From NCBI GenBank assembly GCA_947034895.1, contig OX344765.1, positions 43,901,001-43,965,000 of the forward strand: a stretch of DNA of 64,000 bases, read 5' to 3'. The stretch is from Rhytidiadelphus loreus. Its lineage: Eukaryota; Streptophyta; Bryopsida; Hypnales; Hylocomiaceae. Under the pieces are notes generated by a model that did not search any database, had not been told where the DNA came from, and saw nothing but the letters and a program-made list of their open reading frames with translations. Made by a program: the position numbers and the translations under genes. Positions 8,337 through 52,013 of the stretch are shown piece by piece (position 1 is the first letter of the stretch; the number at the start of each line of letters is the position of its first letter).

Positions 8337-9010
8337 ATAAATTAGCATCCAAGCTATGCAGTGAGTCTTTATACTTCGTTATATGTATTTGCAGAGGACA
8401 GGTTTGCACTGGGGATGTGAATGATGACGTCAATCGGTGTAATCTGCAATAAACAGTGCGTTTGATATGCACACAATATAATATGTCTACGAGACTGTTT
8501 GCGTCTCTTTGGCTTTACAAGTTTAGCACAATGTTTCATTAACCTGTTGTAAAACTTCTCTGTGACGAGCCATGCTTCTGATCTATGTTTCTATCCTGCC
8601 CAGTATATTGTAATGCGTGCCGCAGAGGAATAATCAATTGTCGTTCTTTAGATGAATGGTGACATTCAGCTGCACGAACCTGGAAACTTTTGTAGCACTC
8701 GTCTGGATTTGTATTCGAGGCTGTATATCCTCAAAAGTGCCTTAGAATTTCTCCAATTTTGTTATCCTTGCTATGGAGGTTTGCGAAAATTGCACTGACA
8801 ATTAGCGTTCGTTAGTGGCACTTGGTTTAGCAATTCGTATGTTTTCTTTTGTTCTTGCAGCAGTATAAATTACACCTTGTACTCACGTAGTAAGCTGATT
8901 GCACCTCGAATAGCCTGAATAAAGATTTAAGCCTGTTTCCAACGTTGACAGTGAAAACTTAAGGAGTTTCCTGAATTTTGTTAGCATGCATTTTTTTGAC
9001 AATGAGTGAA
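8337..9010 (+). other. Conserved 3' flank; holds the empty site of the 21.65-kb element
   Basis: The sequence matches copy B at 28,585-28,705, 30,328-30,360 and 52,017-52,541. The empty target of the giant element is TAC at 8,488-8,490, corresponding to TAA in copy B. The empty target of the two small elements is near 8,450. No protein is evident. Confidence 0.75.
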
Positions 9011-30360: not shown

Positions 30361-30363
30361 TAA
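30361..30363 (+). repeat. Target-site duplication TAA (left)
   Basis: TAA immediately precedes the left inverted repeat and recurs directly after the right one at 52,014-52,016. Three-base TAA/TTA duplications are typical of PIF/Harbinger elements. Copy A has TAC at the matching place, 8,488-8,490. Confidence 0.8.
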
Positions 30364-30388
30364 TGGCTGGTGCACACCGGGTGTTAAG
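30364..30388 (+). repeat. Left terminal inverted repeat of giant element
   Basis: TGGCTGGTGCACACCGGGTG followed by TTAAG pairs with the inverse of 51,989-52,013. Of the five differences, three are transitions, in keeping with the ageing seen in its genes. Confidence 0.8.
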
Positions 30389-30446
30389 CAAGGAACGTTG
30401 CTATGAAAATAAAAGAGTCAAAGTGCAACGACCAGTGACGCAGTCA

Positions 30447-30998
30447 TTATAGAGGGTAGGTGGGTCTTTTAATGCGGAAAGAAGTATGACTGGCCATAAT
30501 TGCTAAGAGCGTCTTGTTCGCATAGGGTTTGTGAAAGTGCAGTGGCAGCGTGGGCCCAATGACTTCTGGTAAAATGGGAATGGTGGCTTTCACACCAAGC
30601 TTTTGTTGTAAATGCAATAGTGGGTCCCGATGATGCACTAGTATTGCGTCACCTTCAAAGGACCTAGTCGTCATCGAAGAGGGCAATGGTTTGTCGTTGT
30701 CTTTACTGGAAGTAGCATCCGATGACTTTGGTATGGATTGTGTGCAATGAAATTGATGACGGCGTTGGTGTACGTAGTGGCGCAATTGAAATCTTCCGTG
30801 CGAGTTGATAGTTGCAATTACAGATTGGAAATAGTAATTGGGAGGTTCTTGAGCCATATCTGTAAGCGTGCAGAGTAGGAAAAGAAACCGTCGGAGACGA
30901 GTTGACATCGGCAGCTCAAAGGTATGTATGCAAATGTTTTTCTCGTTTTCTTGTTCAAGAGAATTGTGCAGGCTTATAGAAAACCCTTGCGATTGCAC
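30447..30998 (-). other. Unassigned open frame at the left end of the giant element
   Basis: A 183-codon frame lies between the left terminal repeat and the transposase, on the opposite strand. It has no recognisable motif and no obvious splice context. It may be chance, a remnant of an accessory gene, or an antisense view of the transposase leader region. Confidence 0.2.
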
Positions 30999-31472
30999 TG
31001 AATTTCTTTATTTAGGATTTGTTCAAATTGTTCCATGTTCCGGTTGTTTGAACACAACAGTTATGATGTGCTGTTCTAGTTCTTTGAATCTCTAAAATCA
31101 GAAGTAAAACACTTCTATGATTGCATGAAAGAATTTTGCATTAGCATTATGCCCATGCCATAGCCGCACAACTAAAAACATGATAATGTTTGCAGTATAG
31201 TGTGCAAGATCGTGTTCTCATTGGCACTTCCAGACAATAAGAGTGAGACATTGTCGTCTGTAAAAAGAGAAGGTCAACGCAATTCACAAAAGTAAAATAT
31301 TTTTAGTAAGTGCTAGTGAACGTGTCCGCCACAATGTTTGAAATTTTCACTTCTGAACTCTTTGCATTCTACCTAGTGAATTGTTTGTGGACAGTACATG
31401 TCCTTACCGAAGCTCATTTCCAGTCCTATTCGTTTCGTGCAGCTTGTGAAGTGCGAGCTCCTGTCCTCTGCA

Positions 31473-32828
31473 ATGGACGTTTTGGAAAATTCAATTGAAG
31501 TTCTGTCGTTGACATCACTTATACTATTGTTGTTATTCAATACTCCATGCTCTATGGTCCCAACAGCTGATCATGTCGTGGAAGAAGATGGATTCGGAGA
31601 GGACATTCGTTACTGTATGGGCCTCGATGATGACAACATTAGCTTGGACAACGTCGTAGAAACAACACTACAGCATTGGCGGCTATGGAATTGTTTGACA
31701 GTGTTGGATGACGATATGGGATTTTGGGTAAAACCAAGGTCCACTACTTGGTTTTCACGCAATCTGTTGCAGGAATATGATGACGAACGCTAGATTCACT
31801 TGTTCCGTATGACAAAACGTAGTGTGCTATCCCTAGCTAGTATCTTGGAGCGCTCCATCCAGAAACGGAACACAAATTATCGTCTTGCTATTCCGGCAAT
31901 TGTGCGTCTAGCGTGCACCCTTTTCAAATTAAGCCATGGAGCGAGTTTGCTAGTGTGTAGTGAGATCTTCGCGGTTAGTAGAAGTACCATATCCATCATG
32001 CTCTAAGATGTTGTGCACTCTATCAATGTGGCGTTGTGATCAAAGATTTCGTGGCCGACGGGGGCCCAGCTGCAGTCAACAACAACAGATTTCTATCGGT
32101 TGTGCGGACTTCTTGGTGTAGTTGGAGCTATTGATGGCACGCAGATTCCAATCTCCAAGCCCAAATACAATGCTACTGACTATTACTATTTTAAGACGGG
32201 CGGGTACTCAATGAACTGCCAAGCTATAGTGGACAGTTCGAAGAGGTTTCTGGACTTGTATGTCGGCATGCCTGGATCAACAAATGATTCACGCATGCTA
32301 CGCAGATCTTCATTGTATCATCGTGCACAAAGAAATGCTCTTTGGGATGGTGGATTCAGTTTTCAGGGTTTTGCTCCCTATCTGCTCGGTGATTTAGGGT
32401 ACCTGCTCTTCCCCTAGCTTATGGTGCCTCACCGTCAACACAGGCACCTTCCCTTGGCAGATGCCCTTTTTAATAGAAAGCTATGCAAAGGCAAAGGCAT
32501 TGTGGAAAATGCTTTCGCATTGCTTAAGCAGTCCTTCAAAGAACTGCACACAAAATCTGATTTGAATGTCACATTTTTACCTGATGTTGTGATTTGTTGT
32601 GCACTTCTCCACAACTTGCTTTTAAAACAATGTCATGAGGACGTGGAGCATCTACTACATGTTCTACGACAAGATAACAACACTGATAAAGTCGACGTGG
32701 AGCGACCAACTTCTAGCCATGAAGTTGTTGTCGAAGCAGCTAATGAGGCAAATGCTTTTGCGGCTGGGAGGAGGAAGAGGCGGGACTTGGGTTTGCATTT
32801 GGCTTCTCAACGTCTAGTTCCCGTTTAG
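31473..32828 (+). pseudogene. PIF/Harbinger transposase (DDE), four in-frame stops
   Basis: One frame of 452 codons has no frameshift but is interrupted by TAG (31,791), TAA (32,004), TGA (32,037) and TAG (32,415). The upstream in-frame ATG at 31,398 is possible, but 31,473 (MDVLENSIEVL) is the more likely start. A helix-turn-helix part (YRLAIPAIVRLACTLFKLSHG...FAVSRSTIS) precedes the DDE nuclease. The first aspartate is in VVGAIDGTQIPI, the second in GDLGYLLFP, and the glutamate in GIVENAFALLKQSF. In relatives the proline at the second motif is followed by tryptophan, where TAG stands here. The protein would cut and insert the element at TAA/TTA sites together with the Myb/SANT partner at the other end. 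It is clearly non-functional now. Confidence 0.88.
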
Positions 32829-33208
32829 TATAGTAGCGCCTTCTTCGGTATGGACAACATTTCAGCTATGCCTCAGCGGGTCACAAGTACAGACTCATTA
32901 GCTTTTCAATTCTGTCTTTCTCCATTTTCCCGTTGTTAAGCTTCTTAACACTATATTCATTATATTGGGAGTTTTCCAGTGAATTGGGAGTCTCTTACAA
33001 TGACATGGAAATCATTAGAGGCACAAAATTGTTAATCAAAGCCTACTAGCATCTAATTAGTGACATCGATAAGAAGTTTGCAAGCGAAGAATTTGGAAAT
33101 GCCACACGTGAAATTTGGCATAGTTTACTATTAATAGACAAAACTCATGTACAGTGTATGTAAGCCTATATGTACAATATTTGAACTTCTAGCATATACA
33201 ACTATATA
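32829..33208. other. Spacer between transposase relic and composite gene
   Basis: This AT-rich, convergent 3' ends region has no gene, and no clear inverted repeat that would mark a nested element boundary. Confidence 0.4.
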
Positions 33209-33997
33209 TCAACTACGCGATGCAGTTTTCATCTTCTCCAAAGCTTTCAAAATTTCCGGTCCTCGACTGTACCCCCCCTTGTTAATCTGACCCCCTAGCT
33301 CGCGCATGTGTTGTCGACTCTGCGCTTCCAACGATCTTCTTTCCCAAGAGTCCCAACTTGATGTTGAGACAGCAGTGCAAAATGATCCACTATGTTTCGG
33401 TTTCTTCAATCTGCCCAACTGAGACGATATCTGTTGACGTGGAATCGATGGCGCAATTTTCATGACCGTAGCAATTGCCTTAGGTGGATGATTTTGGATC
33501 TCAGGCTTCGCTTCCGCTATAGAGGTTGGGTAATTAGCATCTCCATAAAGTTTCCTTTGAGTTCCTTTATCGGATGTAGTTGGGGACATTGAAGAAGATC
33601 GGAGATCTTTGGAACGTAGAGGAGATGGTGAACACGAAACTCTCAAGCGTAACTTCCTATCTGGCGGACTGTCCACCACTCCTTCGTGAATGGGTTTCAT
33701 AGAGAAATCCATAGTGGAATTGACCGTGGGTGCTGAACAGAGGACGTTTCCAGTACTCAAAATGACGTACTGTCCATAGTCGAGGATGGAGTCCACGGAT
33801 GCTTGGCAAGGGAGACCTTCTTCTGGTTTGGGGAGCGTCGTTGTGTTCTCCATCTATGACAAACATATTCCACATGAGAAACAAATTGAAGACAAATTTC
33901 AAATTGAACAAATGTTAGGGATTCAATCTCTCAGGTGAGAAAATTAAGAAAACGAACAAACGTAACTCATAATACAAAGTGATCCCAGAAGTTGCAA

Positions 33998-34085
33998 ATC
34001 AGCGCGACCCGAGCTGGAACGTCAACAATACAAAACTACTGTACGACGCTTGCAAATGTTAGACATCAGCTCCACTCGTGCTGAA
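33998..34085. repeat. Two 21-bp palindromes in the last intron of the composite gene
   Basis: Copies at 33,998-34,018 and 34,065-34,085 (ATCAGC...GTGCTGAA form) belong to the family with arms TTCAGCGC and GCGCTGAA around a 5-base centre. The second begins 7 bases inside the intron, directly behind the GTATGC donor. Confidence 0.75.
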
Positions 34086-35523
34086 CTGCATACCTCCAGC
34101 TATCTAGTACCACTAGGCGACCTCCGAACAATCTCCATGAGCTCGTCGTACTCTCAACAATTCCTTTCCTCGCACATCATTTTCCTCCCGATTTTCCACT
34201 TCTTAACTTGGCGGAAGCACTTGAGTCCCAAGTCACGGCTTTGGTGCAACTGCTGAAACCAAGGAAGTAGAACAGCGAGCAAAAATGTGTCCTTGGATCC
34301 ATTTCCCTTGTTAGTCCAGGAATCCGAGAGTATGACGTTGTGTGGGTTGTTCATAATGTGCTTTCGAGGGCTGTCGTCCACAATAACGGTATTCTCAGGT
34401 GCGAAACTCGTTCGCGACTCACCGAAAAGAGCATCCAGGGTTTTCAAAAACAATGCTTTGTCTGTTCCCGGTTCTTTATATTGGATCCACATGCCGGCTC
34501 CATCCCAGCACTTAACCGTTTTGCAGGAGCCCTGACCCAGAATTTGAAAGGGAGACCCTCCATGTCGGAAGAGATATGCAGAAATCTCTTCAGTGGTGGA
34601 TTTCTTCATTGAACTCCATACTGACACGAATGCTATCTTCTCTAACTCCTTCAAAAACGTGGAGCAATTAGGTCTGACGTAGACAGCCTTGGGACCTACG
34701 ATGGCGCCAATCGTGGCTGAGTGCGGCTCCGATTTTTGGTTGTACACTTTGCCGGACCCCTTGGACTTCCAATCTTCTGTGACACATAGAATGCCATTGA
34801 GGTCCAGGACAACGTTGATCCACTTGTCCGCCAGCCCGGACCTCAATGACCTATGGACTCCCTCCGAGGATTCCATATCAGGGACCGTAATATCGGGCCC
34901 CTGCTAACAAACCGACGAAATTGTGTCCAGTTACGCTCGTGGAACTGGTTGAATGCCAAGGCCATCCTATAGTACACGAAGTCCATGATGCAGCACCGCT
35001 GAAAAGGAGATTAAAATCTAATAAGCCATTAGAATTGAAGAGCGCATTTTACCTTCTTCCGCGTAAAGCCTGATGGTTCACCATCGTTTTCCAATGTCGC
35101 TGGTTTTGGAGCCAACGATGCAGACTGCTCAACACTCGGTTGTGATTCTTCCACGATTGGATGGGTCAAATCGTTTTCCAATTGCGCTGCATCTAGAGCC
35201 AACGATGCAGACTGCTCAATAAATGGTTGTGACTTTTGCACGTCCGGAGGGGACAAAGTTTCCCGTGGATTACAATAAGCGACAACAAAAGTCACCTCCT
35301 TAGGCAGGGATTGTAGATTCACAGGGTCTGCGATTCAATAATGAGAAAATCAATGTCCGTGAGAAATCTATATATTACAATCTCATGAAATGAGTTTTCA
35401 TTTTACAAAACTTCGTCTAGATCATCTGAAAACCTTGGCTGCAACCACTTGAAGTGGAGCTCCAACAAAAAAGACGACTGGACTATCTACAATAATATCT
35501 ACATTTCAATCTCTACAATACAA

Positions 35524-35544
35524 ATCAGCGCGTGTCGCGCTGAA
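35524..35544. repeat. 21-bp palindrome in intron 4 of composite gene
   Basis: The arms are ATCAGCGC and GCGCTGAA with centre GTGTC. It lies 37 bases behind the inferred donor (GTTGTA at 35,582). Confidence 0.8.
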
Positions 35545-36701
35545 ATTACACACATGCACACTGAATGGTCATTGGTTACAACCTGTAGGCGCGTCGTCAG
35601 CGGTTTGGTCAGCACTTCCGAGCTCCGCCTCGGAAGAGCGCTCGTCCAGGTTGAGCCCAACCCCAATGTCGCTCATAGCGATCTCCGTGTCATCGTTCTG
35701 GACAGCGTCGGGCTCTCCTACTATAGGTACATTATCCGTAGGTGGTAACGGAACAGGGGTAGGTATCTCAGTAGGTAGAGGTGGAGGCACATTTGCAAGA
35801 TCCAACGGGCTTGATGCATTGCTGATATTGGAGCTTGAGGGCTGCCCTTGCAGCAGCATCGGCGGTGAATGTGCAGCGGGATGAAGCTATGCGACTGGCT
35901 CGATTCCAACCTTGGTCATTAACAACTGCAGTAGTTCCCGGTTGTGCTTGGACTCCTCCCACATCCACGCCGTGTTGGTCTTGTGCATCTCCATGTTCTG
36001 CAGACGTTCGTTCGCGCTATCGGCCCTCAGCTAGCTCGGTCTGCTTTTGCAGCAATTCGGCCTGTTGACGCATTGTTTCCAAAGATAGTGCAGTCTGCCT
36101 CTGAATGTCGGCCATCTGCTTCACGACACTGGTGATTGTGTCCCTCTTTCTCTTCTTCAGAGGCCGCCCAAATGTAATAGGAGTCCTCGGTGTCTGCGAG
36201 AGGGGAGGGAGCATAGATGAAGTTGACGAACCCGGTACATTGTTCGAACGTCGGGTTGGTGTAGGCATCTCCTCTATGCCGACGTCTTCATCGTAATCCT
36301 CTTCATCGTCATCTTCGTCTTTGTTGTCAGATGATAGATCCTCGACGTCTTCGTAGACCGGAGCTCGATTCATCTTTCCGAGGGACTCCTGACTAGACCG
36401 AGGTCAACTTCCTTTTCGTGGAGGAACTATGGCCTCCTGCATTGCTGGTTGGGTATCCATTCTCTAGGAAATCGGCCTTGTCCAATGTATAAGCACGAGT
36501 ACAGATCTACTCCCAATGACTGGATTCATCGGAGAGCCCAATAGCATACACGTCAACGGACAACATCTACAAATGACAAACGAGGAGCGTTATGAACTTG
36601 TCACACCAGAAAGAAATTCAACGCGATAGGAGATGAACTGTAAAAATCATTGACAAGCAGGGTCAAGGATCAATGGAAATTCATGGAAAGACAATGTGCA
36701 A

Positions 36702-36722
36702 ATCAGCGCTAGTCGCGCTGAT
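36702..36722. repeat. 21-bp palindrome in intron 3 of composite gene
   Basis: The arms ATCAGCGC and GCGCTGAT are perfect around TAGTC. It begins 18 bases behind the GTAAGT donor that ends the methylase-like exon. Confidence 0.85.
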
Positions 36723-38178
36723 CTGCGGGGACAGGACTTACCACTGCTGCGCATGTTAGCTTCCCTCCAGCGAATACCGAAAAGACACACTTTCCAGGAG
36801 TGTAGAATTCCTTGACGAGCCATAAGTAGAACTCCATGCGTAGCTCAAGACTGTGAATCCGGTACTCGAGTTCACTGTATGCACGTGCCTTCACATACCG
36901 GTTTGTTTCCGGGCAAATAAACTCATCAGGAATAGTTACTAAGGATGAGTTTGATGGACTTTGAAGAAAAACAAGAAGCACCTTCGGTGGCTTATGGAAC
37001 GCCGAGATATCCCCAAGGCGATCATGTTTGTATGCAGAGTATACTGAGAAGTCTATACCAAAGGAGTTGAGCACCTCGTCTAACTCTACAAATTTAATGA
37101 CCTGTGATTGTTCCTTTTCATCTCCGCAAATGAAGAGCCAGGATGTTACATCCTGAAGAGCCGGGTCCTTCTTCTTGCGCAGTGAGGTCATTACTTCCTT
37201 GAAGTATGGACTGCTGGTATTTGAAGTCTCTTTGTTTTCAATTCCTAGCAAAGTCCTGAAGTCAATCACGCCCAATGACATTCTCGTTATTGTTTCCGGC
37301 GTCCATGAACGTCTTGGCCACTCCATGATGACGTTTGAGGCCTCTACATAGGGGCGGTAGTGGGCCACGGCTGTCGGTTTTTCAAATTTATTCTTATGGT
37401 GCAGAAATGCATTGAAGAATTCAAAAGCTTGCGGGGAAAGCTCGGTGCAGGTCTTGTTTTTTTGACTAGTTGACTTCGCCCTTCCAAAGTAGACTTCCCC
37501 AGGCCTGTCCAAGAGGACATCCATTGTTGCTCTTGAGAACATGTGTGATGTTTTGAACGCCTTCCAGTTATCTACGATGATCTCGTTCTTTGCATTCATA
37601 AGACCCAGATCCGGATCAATTTGGTGAAGCTCCTTCTTCACCAAATGTTTGCGCTTTCGCCTTTCGGACCATTCCCCCGCGGTGTAGCAGCTCTCCAGCA
37701 CTGATGATATCGCCTTCACCGTTACCTTCGGATATTTGTGGGTGCGCTTCAAGCCTGTCTGGTTGAGCATGTGCTTGGCAAGTGTGGCCAACTCATCATA
37801 GCTCAGATTTCCAAGATGCTTGAAAAACTCGCGACTGAGAACGCAGCTCTCTGGGTTCCATCCAACTCGAGCGTTGAACTTCTTCTCCGTATCAGGATTT
37901 GTGAGCTCTCCAAATGCTGCTGCGGATATTACCTCACTCCACAGCTTATAAACCTCCTCCGGAGCCGTGATTAACTTCAGCTCGTTAGTGAGCTTCAGTT
38001 TCTCCTCCTTTTTTTTGTCTTCACAATGTGGAGGTTCTTGTTCACGTCAATTAGAGAGAACCGCAAGAAAACGGCTCTTTCAAAATCCTGAATTCAGTGT
38101 ATAGAGCACTTGTCAGACAACGTGTTCCCATTTTAGTTAAGGTGAATGGAACTAAATTGACCGAACCACAACGTGCAG

Positions 38179-38199
38179 TTCAGTGCGAGCCGCGTTGAT
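38179..38199. repeat. 21-bp palindrome in intron 2 of composite gene
   Basis: The family pattern is TTCAGTGC...GCGTTGAT with centre GAGCC. It begins 7 bases behind the GTAAGC donor. Confidence 0.8.
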
Positions 38200-39739
38200 A
38201 TGCTTACCTGGAAGGATTCCTTGTTCCTTCTTGCTTCGACGGTTCTCTTCGTCGCCGTTGTTGTGCCGATAGACGCTACCTGCGTCGGATTCTTTGGCTT
38301 CCCCATAGTCTCCCAGACTGTCCGCGCTCCAAGGATATTGGTCGCCCATGATGGCTGAGCCACTTGAAAGTGGTTGGTTCTGTTGTAGAATGCAAAAATG
38401 AGTCGGAGCTTTTTCGCGTCCTCTGTCCATACAACGAAGTACTTCCATTTTCTAAAGTACTCTCTCTCCTTCTTATTGACTTTGTTAACGTCATCCATCA
38501 TCCACCTACTTGCGGCCACACTGTGTTGGCCATTAATAATGTAGAAATTGCCTTTCTCGATCCTTGACCATTCCTTTGGTCTGGCGGGTTGCTTTACCGG
38601 CATGACACACAGCGTCTGCCTCGTGCTCTTGTCGGGCATATTTAGTAGCCAGTTCACTAAGTCTTCCATAATTCGGTTTTCTTGGGAACGAATATTGAAT
38701 GTGGCAGGGGGCGGGATGAGCTGCAAGATGTCAATCTCCTTCTTATCATCTTGTGGGTACAAAAAGGCGTCCTCGCAGGTGGTCCAGAACTGCTGGTAAA
38801 CCCTGCTCACCTCTGCATAATCTGGCTTCTTCTCTGTTGCTCGGGAGTGTGGAACCATTGCCATTTCCTCAGCGTAACTCGCGTCGGCAACTTCGGACAC
38901 CTCTGAGGACTTGTGCATTATCATCTTTGATGATTGGGACGCCCTACTTTGTTTTCTTTTCGTTTTGTCAGGCGTCTTTTCTGGCAACTTCTTAGTGTTC
39001 CTGGTCCCGCGAATGCCTGCGGATCCTTGTGTTGCGTTCAGCTTTGAGGCCTGACTGCCACTGTTATTGAGAGTGTCCACGGATACGGTTCTCGGCCGGC
39101 TCATCTCGTTCTGCATTGCAAGCTTTCCTTTCAGCTGATCAAAATCACTAAACAAGGAGCGGAGTTTGGAAACGAGTTTTCTCCATGCCAGTGGTGTGCC
39201 ATTTGCATTGAGCCACTCATTATTGTCTATTTTCTTTTCTAGTTCCTTTACTTTAGCGCTGTATGGAGTTGGCTCCAGACTCTCAAGAAGAAGAGTCATG
39301 ACATACGGAATCAGGACGGAGTCTAAACAGATTGCGAAGTGATATTGCTCATTGCTTTCGACTTCCGGTATTGTTGTCACGCACTTGATTCTGACGAGGG
39401 GATGAGCATCAGCTTCCACATCCTTGACCTTTTCTTCGAATGACAAGTTCAGGAAAACTGCCACATTTTTGAACTTGTATGCGAAGCAGAAATTGTTTCG
39501 GAAGGGGATCATTTTTAGTCCCCAGGCCTCTACTCGCTCTGGCTCTTTGAATTCCCAGAATTCTCCTTCGAGGAGAGATGGGTCGACCTCATTGGGATCA
39601 TCTGCGAACTCGATTTCACATTTCTTGAAATACATGTTCAATGATGCCATTTGATCCTCCATTCTGCAAAATATTTAGATTATTGTTAGCCACACCGCAC
39701 AGAATTTCACAGTTTCACATGAGTGGTACTGTCTGTCGA

Positions 39740-40326
39740 TTCAGTGCGAGTCGCTCTGAATTGACATTGTTATTAATCTATTTGAGATTCTTGATTTCCT
39801 TTTTGTATTTAGCGTCCTATCTATCGACGGACTCACCTTAGAAATATTTTTCTTCATAGTTACTTGTACAACTAGTGAATTTGAGTAGCCGGTCGCTCCT
39901 ACTGTCTTCCAATTAAATCTATGGTTTTGTCTATGAATGTGTAGCTCTACAAACTGCTTTACGGATCAGCGCAACTCGCGCTGATCCATTTTCGGTGTTT
40001 AAGTTTCTTATAGTTTTTTCTTTGTTAAGGTTGATTTTATTTGATATCTTCGGTCGTGTTGAGCTTCTGTCTTTATTATCTTGCTAATTGCTTTACGTAT
40101 GTTGTTTTCAATGGTTTTTGATATTATTATTTATGTTCCGAGTAGCATATGTCTTTCGTCAATTTTAGTGTCTAGTGTGTCGAATCAACGCGAGTCGCAC
40201 TGATATGCTACTTTGGTATATCTGTATGTTTGCCTGATGTCTTCTTTTTTATTTTTAATGAAGTTACGAGACCCGATCTCGTTCTGGGGAGTCCTAATGT
40301 AACTGTTCAGCGCGGCTCGTGCTGAT
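39740..40326. promoter_or_regulatory. Cluster of four palindromes upstream of the composite gene
   Basis: Copies are at 39,740-39,760 (leader intron), 39,965-39,985, 40,184-40,204 and 40,306-40,326, about 120-225 bp apart. The 39,965 copy is the cleanest (ATCAGCGC, AACTC, GCGCTGAT). They sit at the start of the composite gene, where promoter and leader should be, so they may be binding sites for an element-encoded protein. That role is inference. Confidence 0.55.
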
Positions 40327-40749
40327 CTGCGCACTCTAGGTTTAGGGTTTCTGGGATTTTTACTACTTCTTTTCCCTTCCTGTCGCTAGTTTTTCTGTTC
40401 AAATTTTTTAGGGTTTATCGTTTAGGGCGTTGCATGGTTTGGATTTCATTGCGATAAGATCCATCTGGATTCAATTTCATTATGGTAACAGCACACAAAC
40501 ATAAGACCTGCTTGCAATGCTGACAACACAAGCATGAGACCTGTTTGCATGGACACATTGACAACATACAAGGAATAAATGAAGAAAGGAAGAATTCTTA
40601 CGCACCTGAATGCTACACAGAGGAGCTTCGGATTCTACTGTACTTCAAAGTTCCAGATTGCGCAGCTGCTTAGTAGTAATCTGCAATGAATTAAATATTT
40701 AAAGAAGGTTACAACTTATGAAGAAAATCGTATGAAACTAAAGTAACTG

Positions 40750-41060
40750 CAGTATGAAACTAAAGAAACTGCAGTCAACCGAGCTGCAACCAGCTCACCA
40801 CTACCGCCACCACCACTCTCGATACGTCGTCACCACTCAGGATGCCACCACTCCCACTTACGACGCCTCCACTCCCGATACGTCCTCACTAGTCACGATG
40901 CCACCACTCCCACTCCCGACGCCTCCACTCCTGATACGTTCTCACCACTCACGATACGTCCTCACCACACGACGCCTCCACTCCCGACACTCTCACTCCC
41001 ATCACCAGCACTCCCGATACATCCTGACGACTCCCGAAGCCACTCCCCGACTCCCGTCAC
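40750..41060 (+). repeat. C-rich degenerate minisatellite
   Basis: Repeated words CCACTCCCGATACGTC and CACTCCCGACGCCTCC alternate with little G on the plus strand. The plus-strand open frame here reads low-complexity T, P and S and is not taken as a gene. Confidence 0.75.
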
Positions 41061-41329
41061 CGGAAAACAAGAAGAATGAAAACGAACTCACCGCTGCTCT
41101 TCTGCAGTTTGCCTGAGCCGCACCGCAGTAGATTATGTCTGTCGTCAACTGCTCTTGCCAACCTTCGCCAACCTCAATCCACGCAGGAACTGACCTTCTC
41201 GTACCTTCTCTGCAACTGAATCACGAAGCAGAACACAGCGCGTGGGAGGAATCAGAAAAGCAACTCTTCCAGAAAACAACGCTAAAAATTTGGAATACGT
41301 TCAGACTGACAAACCCTTGCCTTCTACGG

Positions 41330-41660
41330 AACAATCAAACCCTGAACCCAAGAATTCCGACCCCCGTGCTTTGCCTTCTGCGGAACAGCAATCAAACCCT
41401 AACCCCCGAACTTCCGACACCAAAGCAAACCGCCCCCAAAGCAAATCTTACAAAAAAACAGCGTAATGAATTACCAGAAATGCTCACCCTCGTGCTTTGC
41501 CTTCTGCGCCCGACCGCAATCAAACCCTAACCCCCGAACTTCTGACACCAAAGCAAATCTTACAAAAAACAGCGTAAGGAATTACCGAAAATGCTCAGAG
41601 CGTCGAACCCGCGCCTTGTGCGGAACAATCAAACCAAAAACACCGAAATTCCGATCCCCG
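41330..41660 (+). repeat. Degenerate repeats with CAAACCCTAACCCCCGAACTT
   Basis: Blocks such as CAATCAAACCCTAACCCCCG, CTTCCGACACCAAAGC and AAATCTTACAAAAAACAGCG appear two to three times at roughly 130-bp spacing. No gene is recognisable. Confidence 0.65.
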
Positions 41661-41919
41661 TGCTGGCGTTCTGGTTCTGAATGTGAGTCCACGTGCAGCT
41701 TGAAACATCCAAAATCTTCCCTTCAACGCTGAAAAACTACGCGATGCAAAAAAACAGCTCAAAACCGTACACTTCGACGTCCCCCTACTTCCACTTCGAA
41801 CGGAACGAACGACGACCGACACCCTAAACTGAAGTAATTCCTGACAAATGCACAAGGATCTGGAAGCGCCGGTGCCCTGGCAGGAAGGAAGTGGGAGAGA
41901 GGACTGACAGCAGTACAAT

Positions 41920-42260
41920 ACCCTAAAACCCCATACCGGAACCCTACACAAGTACACTAAACCCGGACCCCATACCCGGAACCATACCCCGGACCTTATA
42001 CCCGGACCCCATACCCAGACATCATATGCAAACCCCATACAAAAAACACCATACCCTAAACTCTAATACCCAGACCATCAAAAAAATTTACATTACCCTC
42101 AAAAAAATTTACAATATCCGGACTCCATACCCCAAATCCCATACGTGGACACCAAAACCCGACACCAAAACCGGACTCCATACCCGGACATCATATGCAG
42201 ACCCCATACGTGGGCACCATATCCAAAAACCATATCTGGACCTTCCAAAAAATTTACAAA
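41920..42260 (+). repeat. Short tandem repeat, CCCCATACCCGGA type
   Basis: About twenty degenerate 12-13-bp units built from CCATACCCGGACC occur with drift to CCATACAAAAAACAC. Open frames across it on either strand are by-products. Confidence 0.8.
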
Positions 42261-42559
42261 ATCTTTGATCCTTGTCACTAGTACAACACACAAATACCCA
42301 ACCCAATCAAAGTAGGCTCTTACGTCTAATGCGTACAATTGCATGGTCACAATTAGCCCTTTTTTGGGTTTTTTAGAAAACGCCAAGACAGCGATCGCTT
42401 AAGATTTGGTGAAGCATTGCATTTCAGCATTCATCCATCTCTTGGACTAGAAAAGACTTTTCAATCACATTCCTACTCTTCTTCAAATTTTGACATTTCT
42501 AATCTTCACAAATTTGAAAAACAACATTCCTAGATTCAAAAAATGTAGTCAGAAATAAA

Positions 42560-42915
42560 AAATTGTAGTAAAAAATAATTGCACCTACAAGTTTAGTTCA
42601 AATCACTACTTGGGAATAAATGGTCCTACCTATTCTTTTTTTAATAACTAGTCAGAAATAGTTACACCAATACTTACGTTGGATTTGAATAGATTTGAAT
42701 CACTAGTTGAAAATAATTGCACCTATAGGTTGGATTTGAATTACTATAATTTGGAAATATTTACACCTACACTTAGGTTGGATTTGAATCACTACTCGGA
42801 AATAACTACACATGTAAGCTGGATCTGAATTACTAGCCAGAAATAACTGCACCTACAATTAGGTTGGATTTGAATCAGTAGGCGGTAATAATTGCACCTG
42901 TCTGTTGGATTTCCA
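42560..42915 (+). repeat. Degenerate ~47-bp tandem repeat
   Basis: About seven copies of a unit containing GGTTGGATTTGAATCACTA followed by GGAAATAATTGCACCTAC are diverged from each other. They are non-coding. Confidence 0.7.
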
Positions 42916-43363
42916 TTACGCAAATCCTATTTTTTTTTACATGTTGCAAGTGCTTAGGCCATTTGTAACTTGAACATTATATTTTTTTTCACTCTTCCAC
43001 GTACAAATTCCATGAGTTTGTGATTGGCGGGCTTCAAAGTATAGGACTCACACGTGTGTTTTCTCTTTTCCATTATTTTACTCTTGTTTGCATTTCCATA
43101 CAATTATGCAAATCCTATTTTTTTTTACACGTTGCAAGTGCTTCGGCCATTTGCAACTTGAACATTATATTTTTTTTCACTCTTCCACGTACAAATTCCA
43201 TGAGTTTGTGATTGGTGGGCTTCAAAGTACAGGACTCACACGTGTGTTTTCTCTTTTCCATTATTTTACTCTTGTTTGCATTTCCATACAATTATGCAAA
43301 TCCTATTTTTTTTTACACGTTGCAAGTGCTTCGGCCATTTGCAACTTGAACATTATATTTTAT
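42911..43363 (+). repeat. 188-bp tandem repeat, about 2.4 copies
   Basis: GTACAAATTCCATGAGTTTG at 43,001 recurs at 43,189, and TTTTTTACACGTTGCAAGTG recurs likewise at the same 188-bp interval. The copies are almost identical, so the duplication is recent relative to the rest of the element. Confidence 0.85.
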
Positions 43364-44950
43364 CGAATGATTGAGATTTAGTCCATTTCAAACTTCTACA
43401 TTCAATATTTTTTTTTCATCGGCTTAAAATTTCATACTTTTTAGTAGGATGTATAATGTTTGTATTATGTTCACATTGAATTGGAGTTCTTCATGATTTT
43501 TACATGTCCTTTATTGTTTTAAATATACTAAAAATGGAGACTTTCAATTGTGTATGTAATTTTTGAATTCTCTTGGAATATTTCACGAAATATTTTGCAT
43601 ACTAAATTGTAAAGTTCGCTACATAATTTTTTTCGCAATTTCAATCTTCCTTGCATTTTTTGCATTTGCACTATTTTTTTATTCTTTTGGTTTGAATAGA
43701 GATTACAAGAACCCTAAAATTAAAGGGCAAACATGCGAAGTTCTAGAACCGTAAATTTTATTTTTCTTAATAGGTATGAGAAGTAATTTATTTGTAATTT
43801 CTGCGTGGCTCTTCAAACCTAAACTCTAAACCCTAAGACCCTAAACCCTCCATTCGTATTCCAAGAAAGAAACGTTCCTTGAACATTCTTTATTTACAAT
43901 TTATTTGGAAAATGAACGTTCTCATTTCCAAAAAAAGGGCCCACTGAAGATGAAGGACACAGGAATGAAGGTGCATTTCTCCAGTAGAAATTCCTCCGAA
44001 AAATAATAAAGTTTTCTACTTTCTGATATATATATGGCGAACCTAAGTAGCCGCCAGTTGGTTATTCTATATAAGAGAACCTTCATTTCCTAATATTAAA
44101 CTCAGGTGCAGAGAAGGGTATGCACAACAACTTCTACTGGCGACATTTCAAGACTGCAAGGGAAAAGATGCCACTACAATGTACTAAAGTCAACATGCAT
44201 TTGTGGATGGAATTTAGCAAAAAGTGTGGTGACCTGACGATTTACATGGGGCCAGTCATAGAACTATAAAGTGCATGCCATATTCTGCTGTACAGTTGGT
44301 AAGGCCATCGTGATTTCGGGAAAACCTGGACGTGATTTCAGGAACACATGAATTTAGAATGTGAGTGTTCAAAATGGAGGACTCAGTTCGCGCACTTTCT
44401 TTCCCACCGAAGAGTTGAGTTGACGCCACACTTCAGTTGTAGACGATTGCTTCCATCTTTCTCTTCAATTGCGTCGACTTCTGCGTGCATTGTTTTCGGC
44501 TGCTTAGCTTTGCGGTTGTATTGTTCTGTATTCTGATGAGTTGTTGTAGTATCGTTTTGTAGTTGTAGTAGTACCGCGGCAGTTTTTGTTCGACGTATTG
44601 TTGGAGGAGGAGATCCATTGCATAGCTATTACAGTAAGTGAAACCTCCCTTCTGGAAAATACAAGCGTTCTTCATTCAGCAGTTTCTAGGTGTGCGTATG
44701 TCCTGTCAATCCTACTTTCTCAATGATTCTGCGCAAGTGTTTAGTTTTCTTTTGTGCATTTCATTCTGCGATTAGGAGTAGCTCAAACTGTCCTTCAGAT
44801 TTTGAGTTTCTTACGACATTCGAAGATTGCGTCTTCGAGAATGTGGAAGACCTCCTTAAATGATGCCGTAAATTACAGACTTTCTAAATATAGAAAGTAT
44901 TACGTAAATAATTCCTTTAACTTGTATTGCAAAACAAATAAAAATTGCAG
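43364..44950. other. Intergenic part of the giant element
   Basis: This AT-rich spacer has no recognisable gene. A short run of telomere-like motifs (CTAAACTCTAAACCCTAAGA and CCCTAAACCCT) lies at 43,816-43,851; in plants such AAACCCTA boxes are also common near transcription starts. Confidence 0.45.
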
Positions 44951-45675
44951 TTCAGCGCTAGTCGCGCTGAAATGCAATTCCTGGATGGCATCACGAAACT
45001 ACATTTAAGCGCGACCAGAGCTGAAATGCATTTCGGGTATGTCATCATGAAGATACAATTCAGCTCTAGTCACTCTGAAATGCATTTCCGGGATGTAATC
45101 ATGAAACTACAATTCAGCGCGACCAGCGCTGAAATGCATTTCGGATATATCATCATGAAGCTACAATTCAGGGTTAGTCTCGTTGAAATGCATTTCCGGG
45201 ATGTAATCATGAAATTACAATTCAGCGCGACCAGTGCTGAAAGGCATTTTGGGTATGTCATTATGAAGCTACAATTCAGCGATAGTCGCTCTGAAATGCA
45301 TTTTTGGGATGTAATCATGAAATTACAATTCAGCACGACCAACGCTGAAATGCATTTCTGGGATGTAATCATGAAATTACAATTCAGCGCGACCAACGCT
45401 GAAATGCATTTCGGGTATGTCATCATGAAGCTACTATCAACGATAGTCGCACTGAAATGCATTTCCGGAATGTAATCATGAAACTACAATTCAGCGCGAC
45501 CAACGCTGAAATGCATTTCCTAGATGACATCAGGAAACTACAATTCAGTGCGACCAGCGTTGAAATGCATTTCCAGGATATGAGAACGAAACTACAATCC
45601 AACGCTAGTCATGGTGAAATGAAGTTCTATGCCTCCATCCTAGATTACAATTCAGCGCTGGTCTCTCTAAAGTGA
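44951..45675 (+). repeat. 54-bp tandem array, 14 units, each with the 21-bp palindrome
   Basis: Units start at 44,951, 45,005, 45,059, 45,113 and so on to about 45,653. Each begins with the palindrome (arms TTCAGCGC and GCGCTGAA) followed by ATGCATTTCCGGGATG and TCATGAAACTACAA. Two unit types alternate over much of the array, one with centre GACCA and GGGTATGTCATCATGAAG, the other with centre TAGTC and GGGATGTAATCATGAAA, giving a 108-bp higher-order repeat. It lies just upstream of the DUF7869-type gene. Because 54 is divisible by three, both strands stay open; these frames are not genes. Confidence 0.9.
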
Positions 45676-45733
45676 TTTGGTGACAGAAGTGACTTGGTGA
45701 CGACACTTCTGAGAGACATTCCCTAAATTATAC

Positions 45734-45897
45734 TTCTGCGCTGATCGCGCTGAAGTGTGATCTCCAAGTAATTTGAAACAATTTCCTCACTTGAAATGAT
45801 ACATCAACTTGACCAGATCAAATGTGTAGACCCCAATTAACTTCAGAAAGACTAATCATTTCAAGAAGATGTAGAGTTCAGCATGGGTCGCGCTGAA
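45734..45897. promoter_or_regulatory. Two palindromes upstream of the DUF7869-type gene
   Basis: Copies at 45,734-45,754 (TTCTGCGC, TGATC, GCGCTGAA) and 45,877-45,897 (TTCAGCAT...GCGCTGAA) lie 100-270 bp before the start codon. The second precedes an acceptor-like TTTTCGTCCAG, so it probably sits in a leader intron, as in the divergent gene. A regulatory role is inference. Confidence 0.5.
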
Positions 45898-45999
45898 GTG
45901 CTTTCGAGCTTCTTGTAATTCGATTTCTATGTTGGCCACCCTGCGTCAGGTCCTCGACCAATTCTAATGCTTGTGGTTAATTCTTTTCGTCCAGGGATC

Positions 46000-48843
46000 A
46001 TGGCTTCCGTTGCGCTAGATGTTGACAATATGGATACATCTGATGATGAACTACAAGCTCCTGAGCGGAGGAATGATGTCATTCCAGAATGCGAAGGGCT
46101 TCCACGTCGACTCTGGAATACTAAATGCGTTACTCTTTACAATGTCGAAGGGACACTTGTGGCAGAAGGTACTTGTCATAGCGTGAACTCTAATCTGGTT
46201 CTGGGTACGAATGGTCCTCTGGGTGATACGCATGTAGCAGTTCACATTTCAAACACGTACTCTGAGGTAGACATTTCCCATGAGGCAATTTACTCATTGA
46301 TAGGTTGGCCTATAACTTTAGTCCACTGCCGTGGAGCAAGTCTGCATGACCATGAGTTGAGGGCTAAATTCAACGCTCAACAAGCAAGTCTGCTAAACCC
46401 GCCATCCTTGACATCTGCTCGGCCTTACACAAGTATCCTACGAAACCCGCCGCGCGAGTCTTCTCTCCGATACAAGAAACTCCTTACTCAAGATTCTATC
46501 AATGCGGTGTCTAGCAAAGTTTGCTGCAGTCACAATTGCGTTCAACCATTTCCAAGGGAAAAAATTAGAGCCTTCCGTGAACGCATGTATCATAATTCGT
46601 CGTTCAAGCATCGAGCATTCATGAAGACTAAGGTGCATAGGTCAGTTCATCTTGATTCACGTGGGAGGAAGATGGTGACAATTGAAGAGGTGCATGTGTG
46701 CATGCGAGCTTGGATGCATATTTCTGGAGTTCCAGAGACCACATTCTACCGCTACTTGTCGTTCATGAGGCGTGGTAAGGAGGCCATGGACCACGGCAAT
46801 ACGGGATTGTTGAAGCCAAGGAAGCACACTGAACAAGCTACTGCTACTTTGAAGTGTATTCTTGAGAAGGAGGCAGATCACATGCCACACCGTTCTCGGA
46901 CATTGAAATCAGGGGACAAGGTTGTGTCCATGATTCTCCCGGCTACCTTTCAATGGAAGGGGAAGATGAAAGAAATCAATGAGGTCAACGCTGCTTTCGG
47001 ATTGAAGGAGGTTTCAACTTCTAGCTTGAGCAAGATTAGATCTTCCAGGTTTTCTGAGTTTGACATCAAAAAGCCAGGTGACAACTTCGCTCGATGCGGT
47101 ACTTGTGACAAATTGCAAGAGCTCAGGAAAGGTTGTCTTGTAGGGTCTCATAGTGCTCTAAAGTGGTCCAGGAGGCTAGACAAACATCTTGCCATTGCTC
47201 GCGCTCATCGAGAGCTGTACTATGCAAATCGATACCGTTCACAGAATTTTCCTCATGAGTGCCTCACGATCATGCACGATAAGATGGATCATTCAAAGAC
47301 AGCTTGTCCAACCTTCTCTCACAAGACGAAGGATGTTGATGGCCTCATGAAGTTGCCTGTGTCCGTGATTGGCATGATTGCGCATGGTCATGGTGATGTG
47401 CGTTATGCACATTATGGCTTGGATCTCTTTCCACATGATTCAAACTATACCATTGGCTCCATGGCCAAGTTATTGCGAGATCTTGAATTGTCGCCAAAAT
47501 CTTCTACTCAAAAATTGTTTGAGGGTGCCGGGTCTACAAATTTGTTCAAGGCCGTCCTCAAGGGTGCAGAGATGTGCGAAGCATCACTTCCTCCGCAACC
47601 GGTTGTCTTAGTTCCAGATACGCCATTGCCCCCCATTCTAAATGTGCAAATGGACAATGCCACTGGGGACAATAAAAACAGATATGTTTATTGTTTTTGG
47701 TCTCTTCTTGTGGCAAACAAGATCTTTCGTGAAGTATATGTCAACTTTATGATTGTTGGGCATACGCATGACGACATTGATGCGTTGTTTGGAAGATGGA
47801 GTATGCAATTGAAGAAGGAGAACTTCCCTACAATTCCGACACTTATGAAGTCGTTTATGGATGTGGAATCTATTCCCACCATCCCTCACCTCATTGAAGA
47901 GGTTCCTGATTTCAAAGGTTTCATTGCAGGCGCATTTGTGGATGGTAGTGAGATTCTAGTGGGTCACACAAGACCACAACAGGTGAAGTTCTATTTGGAT
48001 TCAACTGGATGCCCAGTCATGAAGTACAAATTGTTTTGCACTGATGTGGAGTGGCTAGGAGAAGAAGGCAGGGGTATCAAATTGTGGAAAGAAGATGTGG
48101 AGGGGCAAAGCTTATGGCCACGTGGAGTGCCGTTACCAGTTCCGCAGAAGGCAATGAGAGGCTCGGATGAAATTTTGAAAGGTATATCAGGATTTCTTAA
48201 GTATTGGGAGAACTTGTGCACGGCAGACATCAGTGGAGAAAATCGGAGGCGCTACAAGCATGTGGTGCACTATTGGCGTGATGTAAAGGTTGCCATGCTA
48301 GATCCGGTACCAGCTTCTACTATTTTGAAGGATGGTTTTTGGTCAACGACACGTGTTGAAGCAACTCGGGTGGATGAATTAGATGAAGATGGTGAGGACC
48401 GTGAAGAGTTTGCAGAGGATGACGCCTACGTGGGGCCTTTGTCAGGTCGCCCACAACCGTCCTTTAGGGTGGCTTGAGATCTTTACGAAGGCTATTTTGT
48501 TGCAGTTCGACCCGCGGATGGTGATAGCCATCAAGTTTGGATTGCAAGGGCGATGTCTAATCCAAACTGTAACCCTGAACATCCGAATTGCGTGCTCATT
48601 CAATACTTTCGTCCAACATCAAGGAATCAAGATGTCCAAGATCTATACAGTGGATGGGACAGCGAAACAGGCCTACGTTGGAAGGTTGATGAGACTGAAC
48701 CACCACTTTGGCAACATACAGATGCTCTCATGACTGCGTGGAAGTCTCATATCAGAAATGGTACTCGACAATGTTTGATCAAGATCCCAGCTGCTCAGAT
48801 TGAAGTCATTAACCAGAGCTTGAATTTATATGCTTCGTCGTAG
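46000..48843 (+). pseudogene. DUF7869-type transposase-like protein, one premature stop
   Basis: The frame from ATG 46,000 runs 825 codons to TGA at 48,475 and continues in the same frame for 122 more codons to TAG at 48,841. The start at 46,000 follows an acceptor-like TTTTCGTCCAG; 45,967 is the other choice. Near residues 40-110 is a small beta domain (TLVAEGTCHSVNSNLVLGTN). A cysteine pair region follows (CCSHNC), then a helical DNA-binding-like part. A nuclease-like core carries MHDKMDHSKT, QMDNATGDNKNRYV and VGHTHDDIDALFG, spaced as acidic motifs of an RNase H/DDE fold. The tail after the stop (EGYFVAVRPAD, VWIARA) resembles a BAH-like or chromo-like reader. I call it DUF7869-type from memory of this family's 'GHTHEDID' motif. 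It may be the transposase of a nested element or a cargo gene. Only the one stop damages it. Confidence 0.7.
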
Positions 48844-49617
48844 ATAAAGCGGTGGTTGGAGTGATTTTCACTACTTTTGTAGGAGTATTTGGTAGAGTGC
48901 TATTTGATTTTGATGTTTATGTAAACTAAGCTTTCACATTGTCGTGGAGTGCTATGTCGATTTTAGGTGCATAATATATGTTTTGGTGTTGTATCTTCAA
49001 TATTTATGTAGCAAGTGCAATATGTATACATTATTAATATATTTGCTATTACATTTTACGTATATTTGTGTCTGGAATTCTTGGAATTCTTGGCTTGCTA
49101 ATTCAAATGATGTTTTTGTTAAGGCATTTATTGATCATATGACTCCCATTTTAATGGAAACTGTAACTTTGAACTATTTAATTGAGTGATTATCGAGCTA
49201 AATTGCAACTTGTTTGAACCGCTAATTGTGTCTTCAAATGTCTAATATTATTTTGGAAGAGCCTTTACATCCCATTATAACGAATATAGCGTTTCTTGTT
49301 GTACATGCAGATGACTTATTTCCTTGTTTGTTCTATCATTGGACCACTTCAGTTGGCTTCAGCGATATAGATATAATTAGACAGTAGACTTCAAGTATAT
49401 GATGTATATACAAACTTGTCTTTATTTAGAAAGCGGATATACATGTACATAGCGTGACTGTAGGTTACGCCATGATTTTGGTACTGCCGGTAATAAAAAA
49501 AAAATTATTGTACAAGCATCTTCTATACATGCGAAGTCCTTAGTATTCAAGCAACAAAAAAACAAAGTCTCTGTACATAGCTAGTGAACTTCAATATATC
49601 CAATGCACTACATTCAT
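48844..49617. other. Spacer between DUF7869-type and Myb/SANT genes
   Basis: AT-rich and presumably the shared 3' region of two convergent genes. No further gene and no clear element boundary is visible. Confidence 0.4.
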
Positions 49618-51360
49618 TTAGGTGGAGCCATCTTCACCACTTCCTACTTTCCGAAGTTCGGTGGATGTGTTCAGGTTGGTGCTAGGCTTGGCAAACACGG
49701 GCGTAGGGGTGACTGCACTGCGGAGACACTGTAAGTTGGCACTGAGAACCGTTGACAAATTTGACAAGCAATGGACCACTTCAGCCTGTTTCTCAATTGC
49801 TAGACGTGCATTGTCATTTGCTGTGCGCGCACTGTCATATAGCCTTCTATCCCTTTCACACTGATATTCCATTTGTTCTCCAAAGAAATGCATTTGCATT
49901 TCGATTTTAGACTTCTCCAGGTCTCGGGAAGCATCAGCCATGTCCTTCATTTGTTTGGCCATCGCTTGTCCAGTAGTTAGCGTAGCATCAGCAATGAGCG
50001 AGTGCTCGGAGATGTTCTTCCTTCGAACAGCAGTGGTACCTAGTCGTGCTCGTGGCTCACTGTCGCTGGTCTTAGTGGAGTTCAAAAGATGTGGCGTCAC
50101 TCCAGGAGGCAAGGTGCTTTTCAGGAAGGTCCCTTTCGGAAAGGTTGTCGGTCTACTACCGTCGTTGCTACACTACAACCCCAACGAATGTCTTCCCTTC
50201 ACAAATCCAACAGCACAGATGGGCGACTGAGTAGATTGATTGCTTGCTTCATTAGTTTGTATCGCAGCAACAAGAAGTAGATCATGAAGGAAATCGTCAT
50301 TGTCAAAGGCAGATGGAATCTCCTCCATTGGGATGGTAGGTTGTCTATAGTTGGCATCTTCGCCTGATAAGAGGTCACGTGCATGAGGTGGATTCATGGA
50401 AGGGCGAGAACCATACCAAGAATTGATGTTGTGAAAAACTTCTTCAGGAAACGTCCTTGGAAGACCTTCCGTTTTCCGCTACGTTGTCGTCATATTCCAA
50501 TACGTGAGTGCATTTGTACCACTACGTGGAAGGAAGTCAAAAATTCTTTTATACTCCGAGATGAGCTGATTCCACTTACTCTTGCAAGCTGGACCATCGC
50601 ATATGCAACTAGAGAAACCAGCATGCATAACAGCGTTGTTAATCCAAAGCCACTTCCCAGCGTCAGGTACCATTAGATCACGGGGATCATGAGCATCGTT
50701 TTCATCGTGGAATAATGATCGCTTGGCGTCAATCAAAGCCATGATCTCAGCAACTTGCTAGTTCGGGCTGCGCTCCTTTTGGATTTTTTTCGTTGTGCTC
50801 CCAATTTCCGAACTTCCAGTAGGCCCTCCTACTCTTGGAAGCCCCGTCAGCGCTAGCGATACAGGTCCACGATTCTGCTGTCCGCTGCTTGCCGTGTCTA
50901 CACACATAGAGATTGCATGAGCGGCATACAATTCAGTACAAAAGAAGAATTGTACTGAGAACCCCATCAAATTGTTCTTCTAGAAACCTACAACTGTCTT
51001 CCTCGACGAAGGTATGACAAAGCCCTTGTAATTCTAGCGTGATATTTAGTGATCCACAATTGAAAGTGCATATCTGAGCTAAACATATTACCTACAGGAG
51101 GAGTCTGTAGTTGTGCATCGGAAGACGGAATGGAAGCAATCCTTGTAGGAGCTGCACAGGAAAATCCATGTTCAAGTCAAGCATGCTATTGGTAAACAGA
51201 AACAATAATATGAATCGGAATTTCTCCCGTAAATTTGACTATAATGGAAAGGAAAAAAACGTCGACTGTAGTGAAAGTGAAGCGGGCACGTACCATTTGC
51301 ACACTGAGCATGCTGATGTGAATCAATGCCATAGGATTGGGCGTGAAGATGGTTCTCCAT
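49618..51360 (-). pseudogene. Myb/SANT-like DNA-binding protein of the Harbinger element, three in-frame stops
   Basis: Three exons are inferred: 51,360-51,294, 51,151-51,092 and 50,897-49,618, in consistent phases. The third carries TAG at 50,758, 50,479 and 50,173 with no frameshift. The Myb/SANT (trihelix-like) domain reads KWLWINNAVMHAGF, then CKSKWNQLISEYKRIFDFL and LTYWNM, with the spaced tryptophans of the family. A helical, glutamine-rich C-terminal part follows (AKQMKDMADASRDLEKS, EMQMHFFGEQMEYQ), probably a coiled coil. Harbinger elements normally encode such a protein, which binds the transposase and brings it to the element ends and the nucleus. Its place next to the right terminal repeat, facing inward, mirrors the transposase at the left end. 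Confidence 0.8.
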
Positions 51361-51988
51361 GATTTGCGCTGTCAGCTATCTTATATGAACAGAATTGAAT
51401 TCGTAGAATTTCATAACACAAAGACACAGGAATTGTACAATTCCACTGAACACATGCAGCGCATGCATAGTAAAAGCAACGTCCTAATCTAGATTCCTAT
51501 TGTCCTCCTACAGCGACAGTGCTCTGTACACAATGAGAAACTAATGTGTCTGCAGTGCTATCCTTCACCTTCAATTTCACATTTGTAATGCAAAGGTGCA
51601 CTTCAGAAACCGTCAAAATTTAATTGTTCGATACCCTAAAACACTTCCCGTGCACATTGTCTCCGATGTATAGCCCGTCTTCAGTCTGCAGTTTCCGGCG
51701 GTGATTATTTCTGCGGGCTAAAAGAGGATGGCCACTTAATCGACCTCTCAATGGCCAATTATCTAAAATTGCCTTAACGATGCTAAAATCTACATTTGGC
51801 GAGAATGGCGCTCCTACATTATTACTGACAATAAGTACGATACATAAAAAAATTGATGACTGTGACTTCCAAGAGCATCGTTGTTTGCTTGTGCCACATA
51901 AGCATCCACGTTGGATCGGGAATCACAAAAAAACATCGGTGTGAATGCCCCAGAAGTTCCCTTCCTAATAACGATAACTAATATTGCC
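51361..51988. other. Right subterminal region of the giant element
   Basis: Presumed promoter of the Myb/SANT gene plus subterminal DNA. No gene is seen. The frame at 51,814-51,996 runs into the terminal repeat and is discounted. Confidence 0.45.
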
Positions 51989-52013
51989 CTTATCACCTAG
52001 TGTGAACCAACCA
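51989..52013 (-). repeat. Right terminal inverted repeat of giant element
   Basis: Read on the minus strand it begins TGGTTGGTTCACACTAGGTG and then GATAAG, matching the left end at 20 of 25 positions. TAA (52,014-52,016) follows, and sequence homologous to 8,491 onward resumes at 52,017. Confidence 0.8.

Follow-up and report, generated by a model that had tools for sequence, protein, structure and literature searches.

The locus analyzed here, from the moss Rhytidiadelphus loreus, raises the question of whether the 21.65 kb enclosed by a pair of PIF/Harbinger ends form a single giant transposon or two elements, one inside the other. The window, meaning the whole stretch of 64,000 nucleotides that was analyzed, belongs to contig C5 of a genome assembly of 407 Mb in 489 contigs.

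The outer Harbinger element

The preliminary description had based the outer boundaries on an inverted repeat, on TAA at both sides, and on an uninterrupted copy of the site, and all three were confirmed. The paralogous segment at approximately 8,461 to 8,530 is continuous across the insertion site and lacks the insert. A 20/25 repeat is expected by chance somewhere when all position pairs of the window count, whereas its chance probability is approximately 1e-8, assuming equal base frequencies, at the one breakpoint pair that the empty site fixes independently. The transposase-like and Myb/SANT-like frames that had been described near the two ends, as well as the interior of approximately 16 kb with open frames and repeats, were also seen. 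The outer element consists of the following features:

30364..30388, plus strand: left terminal inverted repeat, 20 of 25 positions matching the right end; TAA duplication at 30361-30363
51989..52013, minus strand: right terminal inverted repeat; TAA duplication at 52014-52016
8488..8490, plus strand: empty target site (TAC) in the paralogous segment
30364..32946, plus strand: left part of the approximately 5.3-kb element, holding one TCTT (32943-32946)
49294..52013, plus strand: right part, holding the second TCTT (49294-49297)
31380..32828, plus strand: decayed transposase frame (DDE_Tnp_4), with stops at 31791, 32004, 32037, and 32415
49618..50757, minus strand: decayed Myb/SANT-like frame, with in-frame stops at 50481 and 50175

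The transposase frame, with its four in-frame stops, matched PF13359 in Pfam (E values of 9.5e-15 and 8.4e-9). The Myb/SANT-like frame, with two stops, matched PF13837 with an E value of 0.0032, which is weaker than the Pfam cut-off; its position and orientation are those expected. The element shares with PIF/Harbinger transposons the tail-to-tail arrangement of a transposase and a candidate Myb-like gene, the 3-bp TAA duplication, the short inverted repeats, and, without the insert, a size of about 5.3 kb: after removal of 16,347 bp and one TCTT, 5,299 bp are left, a normal length for Harbinger. It differs from them in that both genes are decayed and another transposon interrupts it.

Directly upstream of the element, at 29512-30246, there are foldback or MITE-like inverted repeats with lengths of 139 and 83 nt (71-73%). 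Furthermore, two minus-strand gene regions with Pfam protein-kinase matches (4558-7917 and 22390-25787) are duplicates, approximately 91-95% identical in most segments. They form part of an approximately 18-kb duplication, the neighborhood of which also supplies the Harbinger empty site. No Rfam match above the gathering score and no tRNA were found in the window.

An inner element with its own ends

Candidate ends of an inner element were located by a degenerate scan of intervals that separate the Harbinger genes from the interior genes:

32947..49293, plus strand: inner giant DNA transposon of 16,347 bp, between the two Harbinger genes
32947..32970, plus strand: inner left terminal inverted repeat, AACACTATATTCATTATATTGGGA, 21 of 24 positions matching the right end; TCTT at 32943-32946
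49270..49293, minus strand: inner right terminal inverted repeat; TCTT duplication at 49294-49297

Five interval pairs were chosen, and the inner ends were obtained in both pairs that contain them, with a score of 18.8 as compared to best scores of 16.2 and 15.8 in shuffled sequences (10 shuffles each). The other three pairs gave no score above their own shuffles. Taken alone, this repeat is moderately significant, its score being reached by 1 of 500 shuffles and by 6 of 453 real segment pairs. An exact-seed search of the interior for inverted repeats (seed 9) returned mainly palindromes and short pairs at chance level, and singled out neither true terminal-repeat pair. By itself the repeat was suggestive, and it was the copies elsewhere in the genome that settled the inner ends.

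The inner right end produced 27 match rows in the genome, including the window's own and some copies in two pieces. Twelve matches, again including the window's own, stop exactly at the position corresponding to 49293. The flanks read at nine of the matched loci were mutually different. Of the 11 exact-end copies besides the window's own, nine were retrieved within stretches of 18 kb. Three of the nine copies are full length (16,369, 16,649, and 16,818 bp), are approximately 95-97% identical to the window copy over the main segments, carry an identical left-end 24-mer, and are flanked by perfect 4-bp duplications (AATG, CAAC, and CAAT). With the TCTT of the window, a 4-bp duplication is present in all four full-length copies. 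In the remaining six, the left end was not seen in the 18-kb stretch, so that these copies are truncated, interrupted, or diverged. The right ends are 98-99% identical among copies, indicating a recent multiplication of the family. A transposase search of the 407-Mb genome gave 82 scored matches among 1,739 first-look candidates.

The copies are unevenly distributed: 9 of the 12 right ends with the exact terminus, the window's own being counted, are located on contig C3 (48-80 Mb), which accounts for 21% of the assembly (binomial P of approximately 9e-5). This excess may reflect local hopping or a region of low recombination, perhaps a sex chromosome.

Nested insertion and its alternatives

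A genome search with the Harbinger ends identified four other loci, and the interior was absent from the 9.8 to 9.9 kb retrieved around each of them. The most informative is L008 (C3:1.79-1.80 Mb), a paralogous Harbinger without the inner insert. Window positions 31793-32938 align with L008 positions 5471-6609 (82%), and positions 49293-52019 with the adjoining 6621-9331 (74.6%). The joined flanks of the window align across the inner site, where L008 has TTTT in place of the TCTT of the window. The left Harbinger end was not recognized in L008, which may be truncated or diverged there. L009 (460-953) and L011 (8966-9452) contain MITE-like elements of approximately 490 bp with both Harbinger ends, and L010 matches the Harbinger right end partially. 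The uninterrupted L008 and the full inner copies elsewhere together indicate that an independent 16,347-bp element is nested in a Harbinger, and we hold this structure, along with the nature of the inner element as described here, with high confidence. The preliminary description had proposed that a nested insertion would be revealed by Harbinger ends occurring elsewhere without the interior and by terminal repeats with a target duplication around it; this is essentially what we found, the repeats and the 4-bp duplication framing 32,947-49,293 and full copies existing elsewhere with other duplications.

The same description had carried in its title a 21.65-kb giant Harbinger, whose interior genes would be cargo moved by the Harbinger transposase, and had offered a second element inside a normal Harbinger as the other reading. 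The latter stood and the former did not. The exact outer boundaries and the empty site agree with a giant Harbinger, but the inner unit is equipped with separate ends, 4-bp duplications, and a transposase and exists as full copies in different flanks, the Harbinger transposase frame is broken by four stops, and the interior is missing at all four other Harbinger-end loci within the stretch retrieved. We consider a genuine giant Harbinger extremely improbable and reject it as a family-level claim. What takes its place is a recently multiplied family of giant DNA transposons in a land plant.

The preferred history is that a PIF/Harbinger of about 5.3 kb would have inserted at the site with a TAA duplication and then decayed, and that the independent 16,347-bp transposon would have landed later between its genes, duplicating TCTT. 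This order is the most likely one. Alternatively, the inner element might have entered a Harbinger elsewhere, with a Harbinger transposase supplied in trans then carrying the whole composite to this site. The uninterrupted target at 8,488 records the insertion of the outer ends only, leaving the inner insertion undated, and Ectocarpus has nested insertions that are fixed among giant transposon copies, according to excerpts of their account (PMC12477816); both points count for such a move. However, the genome search with the Harbinger ends revealed no second composite copy. The Harbinger frames also have a higher density of in-frame stops (6 per ~860 codons) than the homology-defined frames of the inner element (1 per ~1,220; Fisher P of 0.022, the numbers of codons being hand estimates), as would fit an older Harbinger. 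Movement as a composite is therefore judged very unlikely, and the later insertion into a resident Harbinger is retained.

Genes of the inner element and its relation to Sola

The inner element contains the following frames:

45919..48474, plus strand: DUF7869 protein, predicted DDE/RNase H-like transposase (PF25273, E value of 1.7e-41)
36709..39674, minus strand: ParB-like gene of at least two putative exons (39674-38133 and 38046-36709)
34154..34903, minus strand: FCP/NIF-type phosphatase-like protein (PF03031, E value of 6.5e-16)
33209..33853, minus strand: open frame of 214 aa without a Pfam match, kept in 2 of the 3 other full copies

The transposase frame extends to approximately 48840 beyond an in-frame TGA at 48475, and its Pfam label is DUF7869 only. 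The AlphaFold model has an integrase-like fold supported by structural matches, the VIA-align match lists being compatible with other families too. Residues D454, D457, D579, and D621 are invariant across 40 sequences and are candidate catalytic residues. We found no paper on DUF7869 in the open-licence literature, and the protein is a putative Sola transposase. This predicted DDE-type protein most likely moves the inner element by cut and paste. Database matches with a named organism came from two mosses, Physcomitrium patens and Ceratodon purpureus, with one exception filed under an uncultured cyanobacterium. A scan of genome contigs gave a sole locus, L001 (CADCWO010000071.1), a contig of 4.3 kb assigned to an uncultured Synechococcales MAG, which encodes a moss-type DUF7869 transposase (53% identical) and in which the inner terminal repeats were not seen. 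It is likely to be moss (plant) contamination of the cyanobacterial MAG. A scan of viral contigs with the ParB, DUF7869, and phosphatase queries and the inner repeat pattern gave no match.

Both parts of the ParB-like gene are fused in a single Physcomitrium protein, and the ParB/Srx CTP-binding fold was found in the ParB-like protein. The phosphatase-like protein had 124 database matches at an E value of at most 0.001, of which 120 were listed. The transposase, ParB-like, and phosphatase genes are recognizable in all three other full copies; the transposase frame is broken in each of these and parts of the ParB frame in two. The ParB-like protein and the phosphatase travel with the inner element, being recognizable in four of four full copies, some with stops in their frames. 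Among database contigs of at least 10 kb, 6 were common to the 45 ParB and 63 DUF7869 contigs, and the 73 phosphatase contigs shared 3 with each set, a comparison made by size alone, without a contig universe, which is weak and was not used.

The inner element fits well as a giant Sola-type transposon. Excerpts of the literature describe Sola elements as having 4-bp duplications and sizes of mostly 2-9 kb, with some above 15 kb, and as present in Physcomitrella (PMC10741241, PMC9033089); 4-bp duplications are also given for Sola2 (PMC3627910). The inner element shares with Sola elements the 4-bp duplications, terminal inverted repeats (21/24), a size that may exceed 15 kb, and the occurrence in mosses. 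The giant Sola1-1_Ec32 of Ectocarpus (21.5 kb) pairs Sola with a ParB-like accessory gene, according to excerpts of its account (PMC12477816), and in both elements this gene lies on the strand opposite the transposase. In contrast to Sola1-1_Ec32, the inner element resides in a land plant, has a phosphatase accessory gene, and contains dispersed palindromes, which the excerpts of that account (PMC12477816) do not mention. These also give the Ectocarpus Sola1-1 protein a methyltransferase domain, whereas the 445-aa part of the moss ParB-like protein had no methyltransferase match in Pfam, PDB sequences, PHROGs, or PADLOC; a motif-like FAGGKLT stretch was noted in it by eye only.

Repeated palindromes

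The distinctive feature of the inner element is one dyad repeated many times, as dyads in general showed no clear enrichment in it or in L001:

33998..45897, no strand: 21-bp palindrome TTCAGCGCGAGTCGCGCTGAA, 24 sites with up to 5 mismatches and 26 with up to 6
44948..45648, plus strand: palindrome-containing 54-bp tandem array, upstream of the transposase gene

The sites lie in putative introns, intergenic DNA, and the tandem array, and none occurs in the Harbinger parts or in the window outside the inner element. They are imperfect, the best being one mismatch off TTCAGCGCGAGTCGCGCTGAA, and T predominates at position 9 (15/24), breaking the dyad there. Each of the three other full copies has 23 palindromes, in places largely matching those of the window. 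The nine retrieved stretches of 18 kb each contain between 0 and 23 occurrences of the window motif, with up to 5 mismatches allowed; the stretch with none, c19, contains only about 1 kb of the inner element. No site was seen in the 3.2-3.3-kb right-end pieces of the relatives L028 and L029 and the copies L023 and L024.

Relatives carry variants of their own. In L001, TTTAGCTCGAGTCGAGCTAAA is present at 7 sites, of which one is a perfect match and none falls within the matched coding region. In a diverged element at C3:78.735-78.749 Mb, ATCAGCTCGAGTCGAGCTGAT was counted 14 times, including six perfect matches; this element shows 72-81% (transposase) and 57-65% (ParB) amino acid identity to the window element, and its right terminal repeat was found with 3 mismatches and its left end was not. 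This relative is held by L032, which had been intended as a palindrome control. De novo palindromes were absent from a further control, L040, and in L008 and L010 only AT-rich ones were among those printed. In each pairwise comparison of the three variants, the half-sites differ at 2 of 10 positions and the other half mirrors the change. Sites fitted their own variant best in 19 of 24 cases in the window (4 ties, 1 other), 14 of 14 at C3:78.74 Mb, and 7 of 7 in L001, a fit that is partly by construction, each motif being derived from its own element. That relatives have their own variants suggests that the palindromes are cognate sites of an element-encoded DNA-binding protein, perhaps the ParB-like protein.

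The ParB-like protein would be the best candidate to bind them, as a dimer, by which the element might recognize, regulate, or condense its own DNA; we regard this as plausible, if rather less than probable. The bacterial ParB-parS system has in common with the inner element the ParB CTP-binding fold and scattered palindromic sites, here candidate binding sites. It differs in that the inner element is a eukaryotic transposon and no ParA match was found in Pfam among the inner frames searched, and bacterial parS is unlike the palindrome in sequence. Alternatively, the palindromes may be a spread repeat or transposase sites (cf. the CACTA subterminal repeats) unrelated to the ParB-like protein, a reading that we hold to be possible and somewhat doubtful. 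Many of them sit in the array adjoining the transposase gene, and other superfamilies are known to have arrays of transposase sites. However, the palindromes are spread over 34.0-45.9 kb and absent near both ends, unlike subterminal transposase sites, and the dyad suits a dimeric binder. ParB also diverges more between subfamilies (57-65%) than the transposase (72-81%), which is not decisive.

Only tentatively do we propose that moss giant Sola-type transposons have a parS-like system, in which a ParB-family protein would bind and co-evolve with a family-specific repeated palindrome, the element thereby recognizing and organizing its own chromatin and ends. In this family, a predicted DDE transposase is found together with a ParB fold of bacterial type and palindromes specific to the family, and DNA organizers encoded by the element itself, with sites to match, would offer a testable account of how such large elements manage. 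DNA transposition is said to fall off with large cargo, according to an excerpted source (PMC6431247); a parS-like system, if true, would explain how 16-kb DNA transposons stay mobile and reach high copy numbers. Among titles and abstract beginnings in the open-licence literature, none was found that reports palindromic sites for Sola elements. The specificity can be tested directly with two natural protein-site pairs (the window and C3:78.74 Mb) and a third palindrome variant (L001).

The inner element also contains a 188-bp tandem repeat (2.4 copies, 97%) at 42915-43361, with matching repeats in other full copies, and a short interstitial stretch of the plant telomere-like repeat AAACCCTAAGACCCTAAACCCT at 43828-43849.
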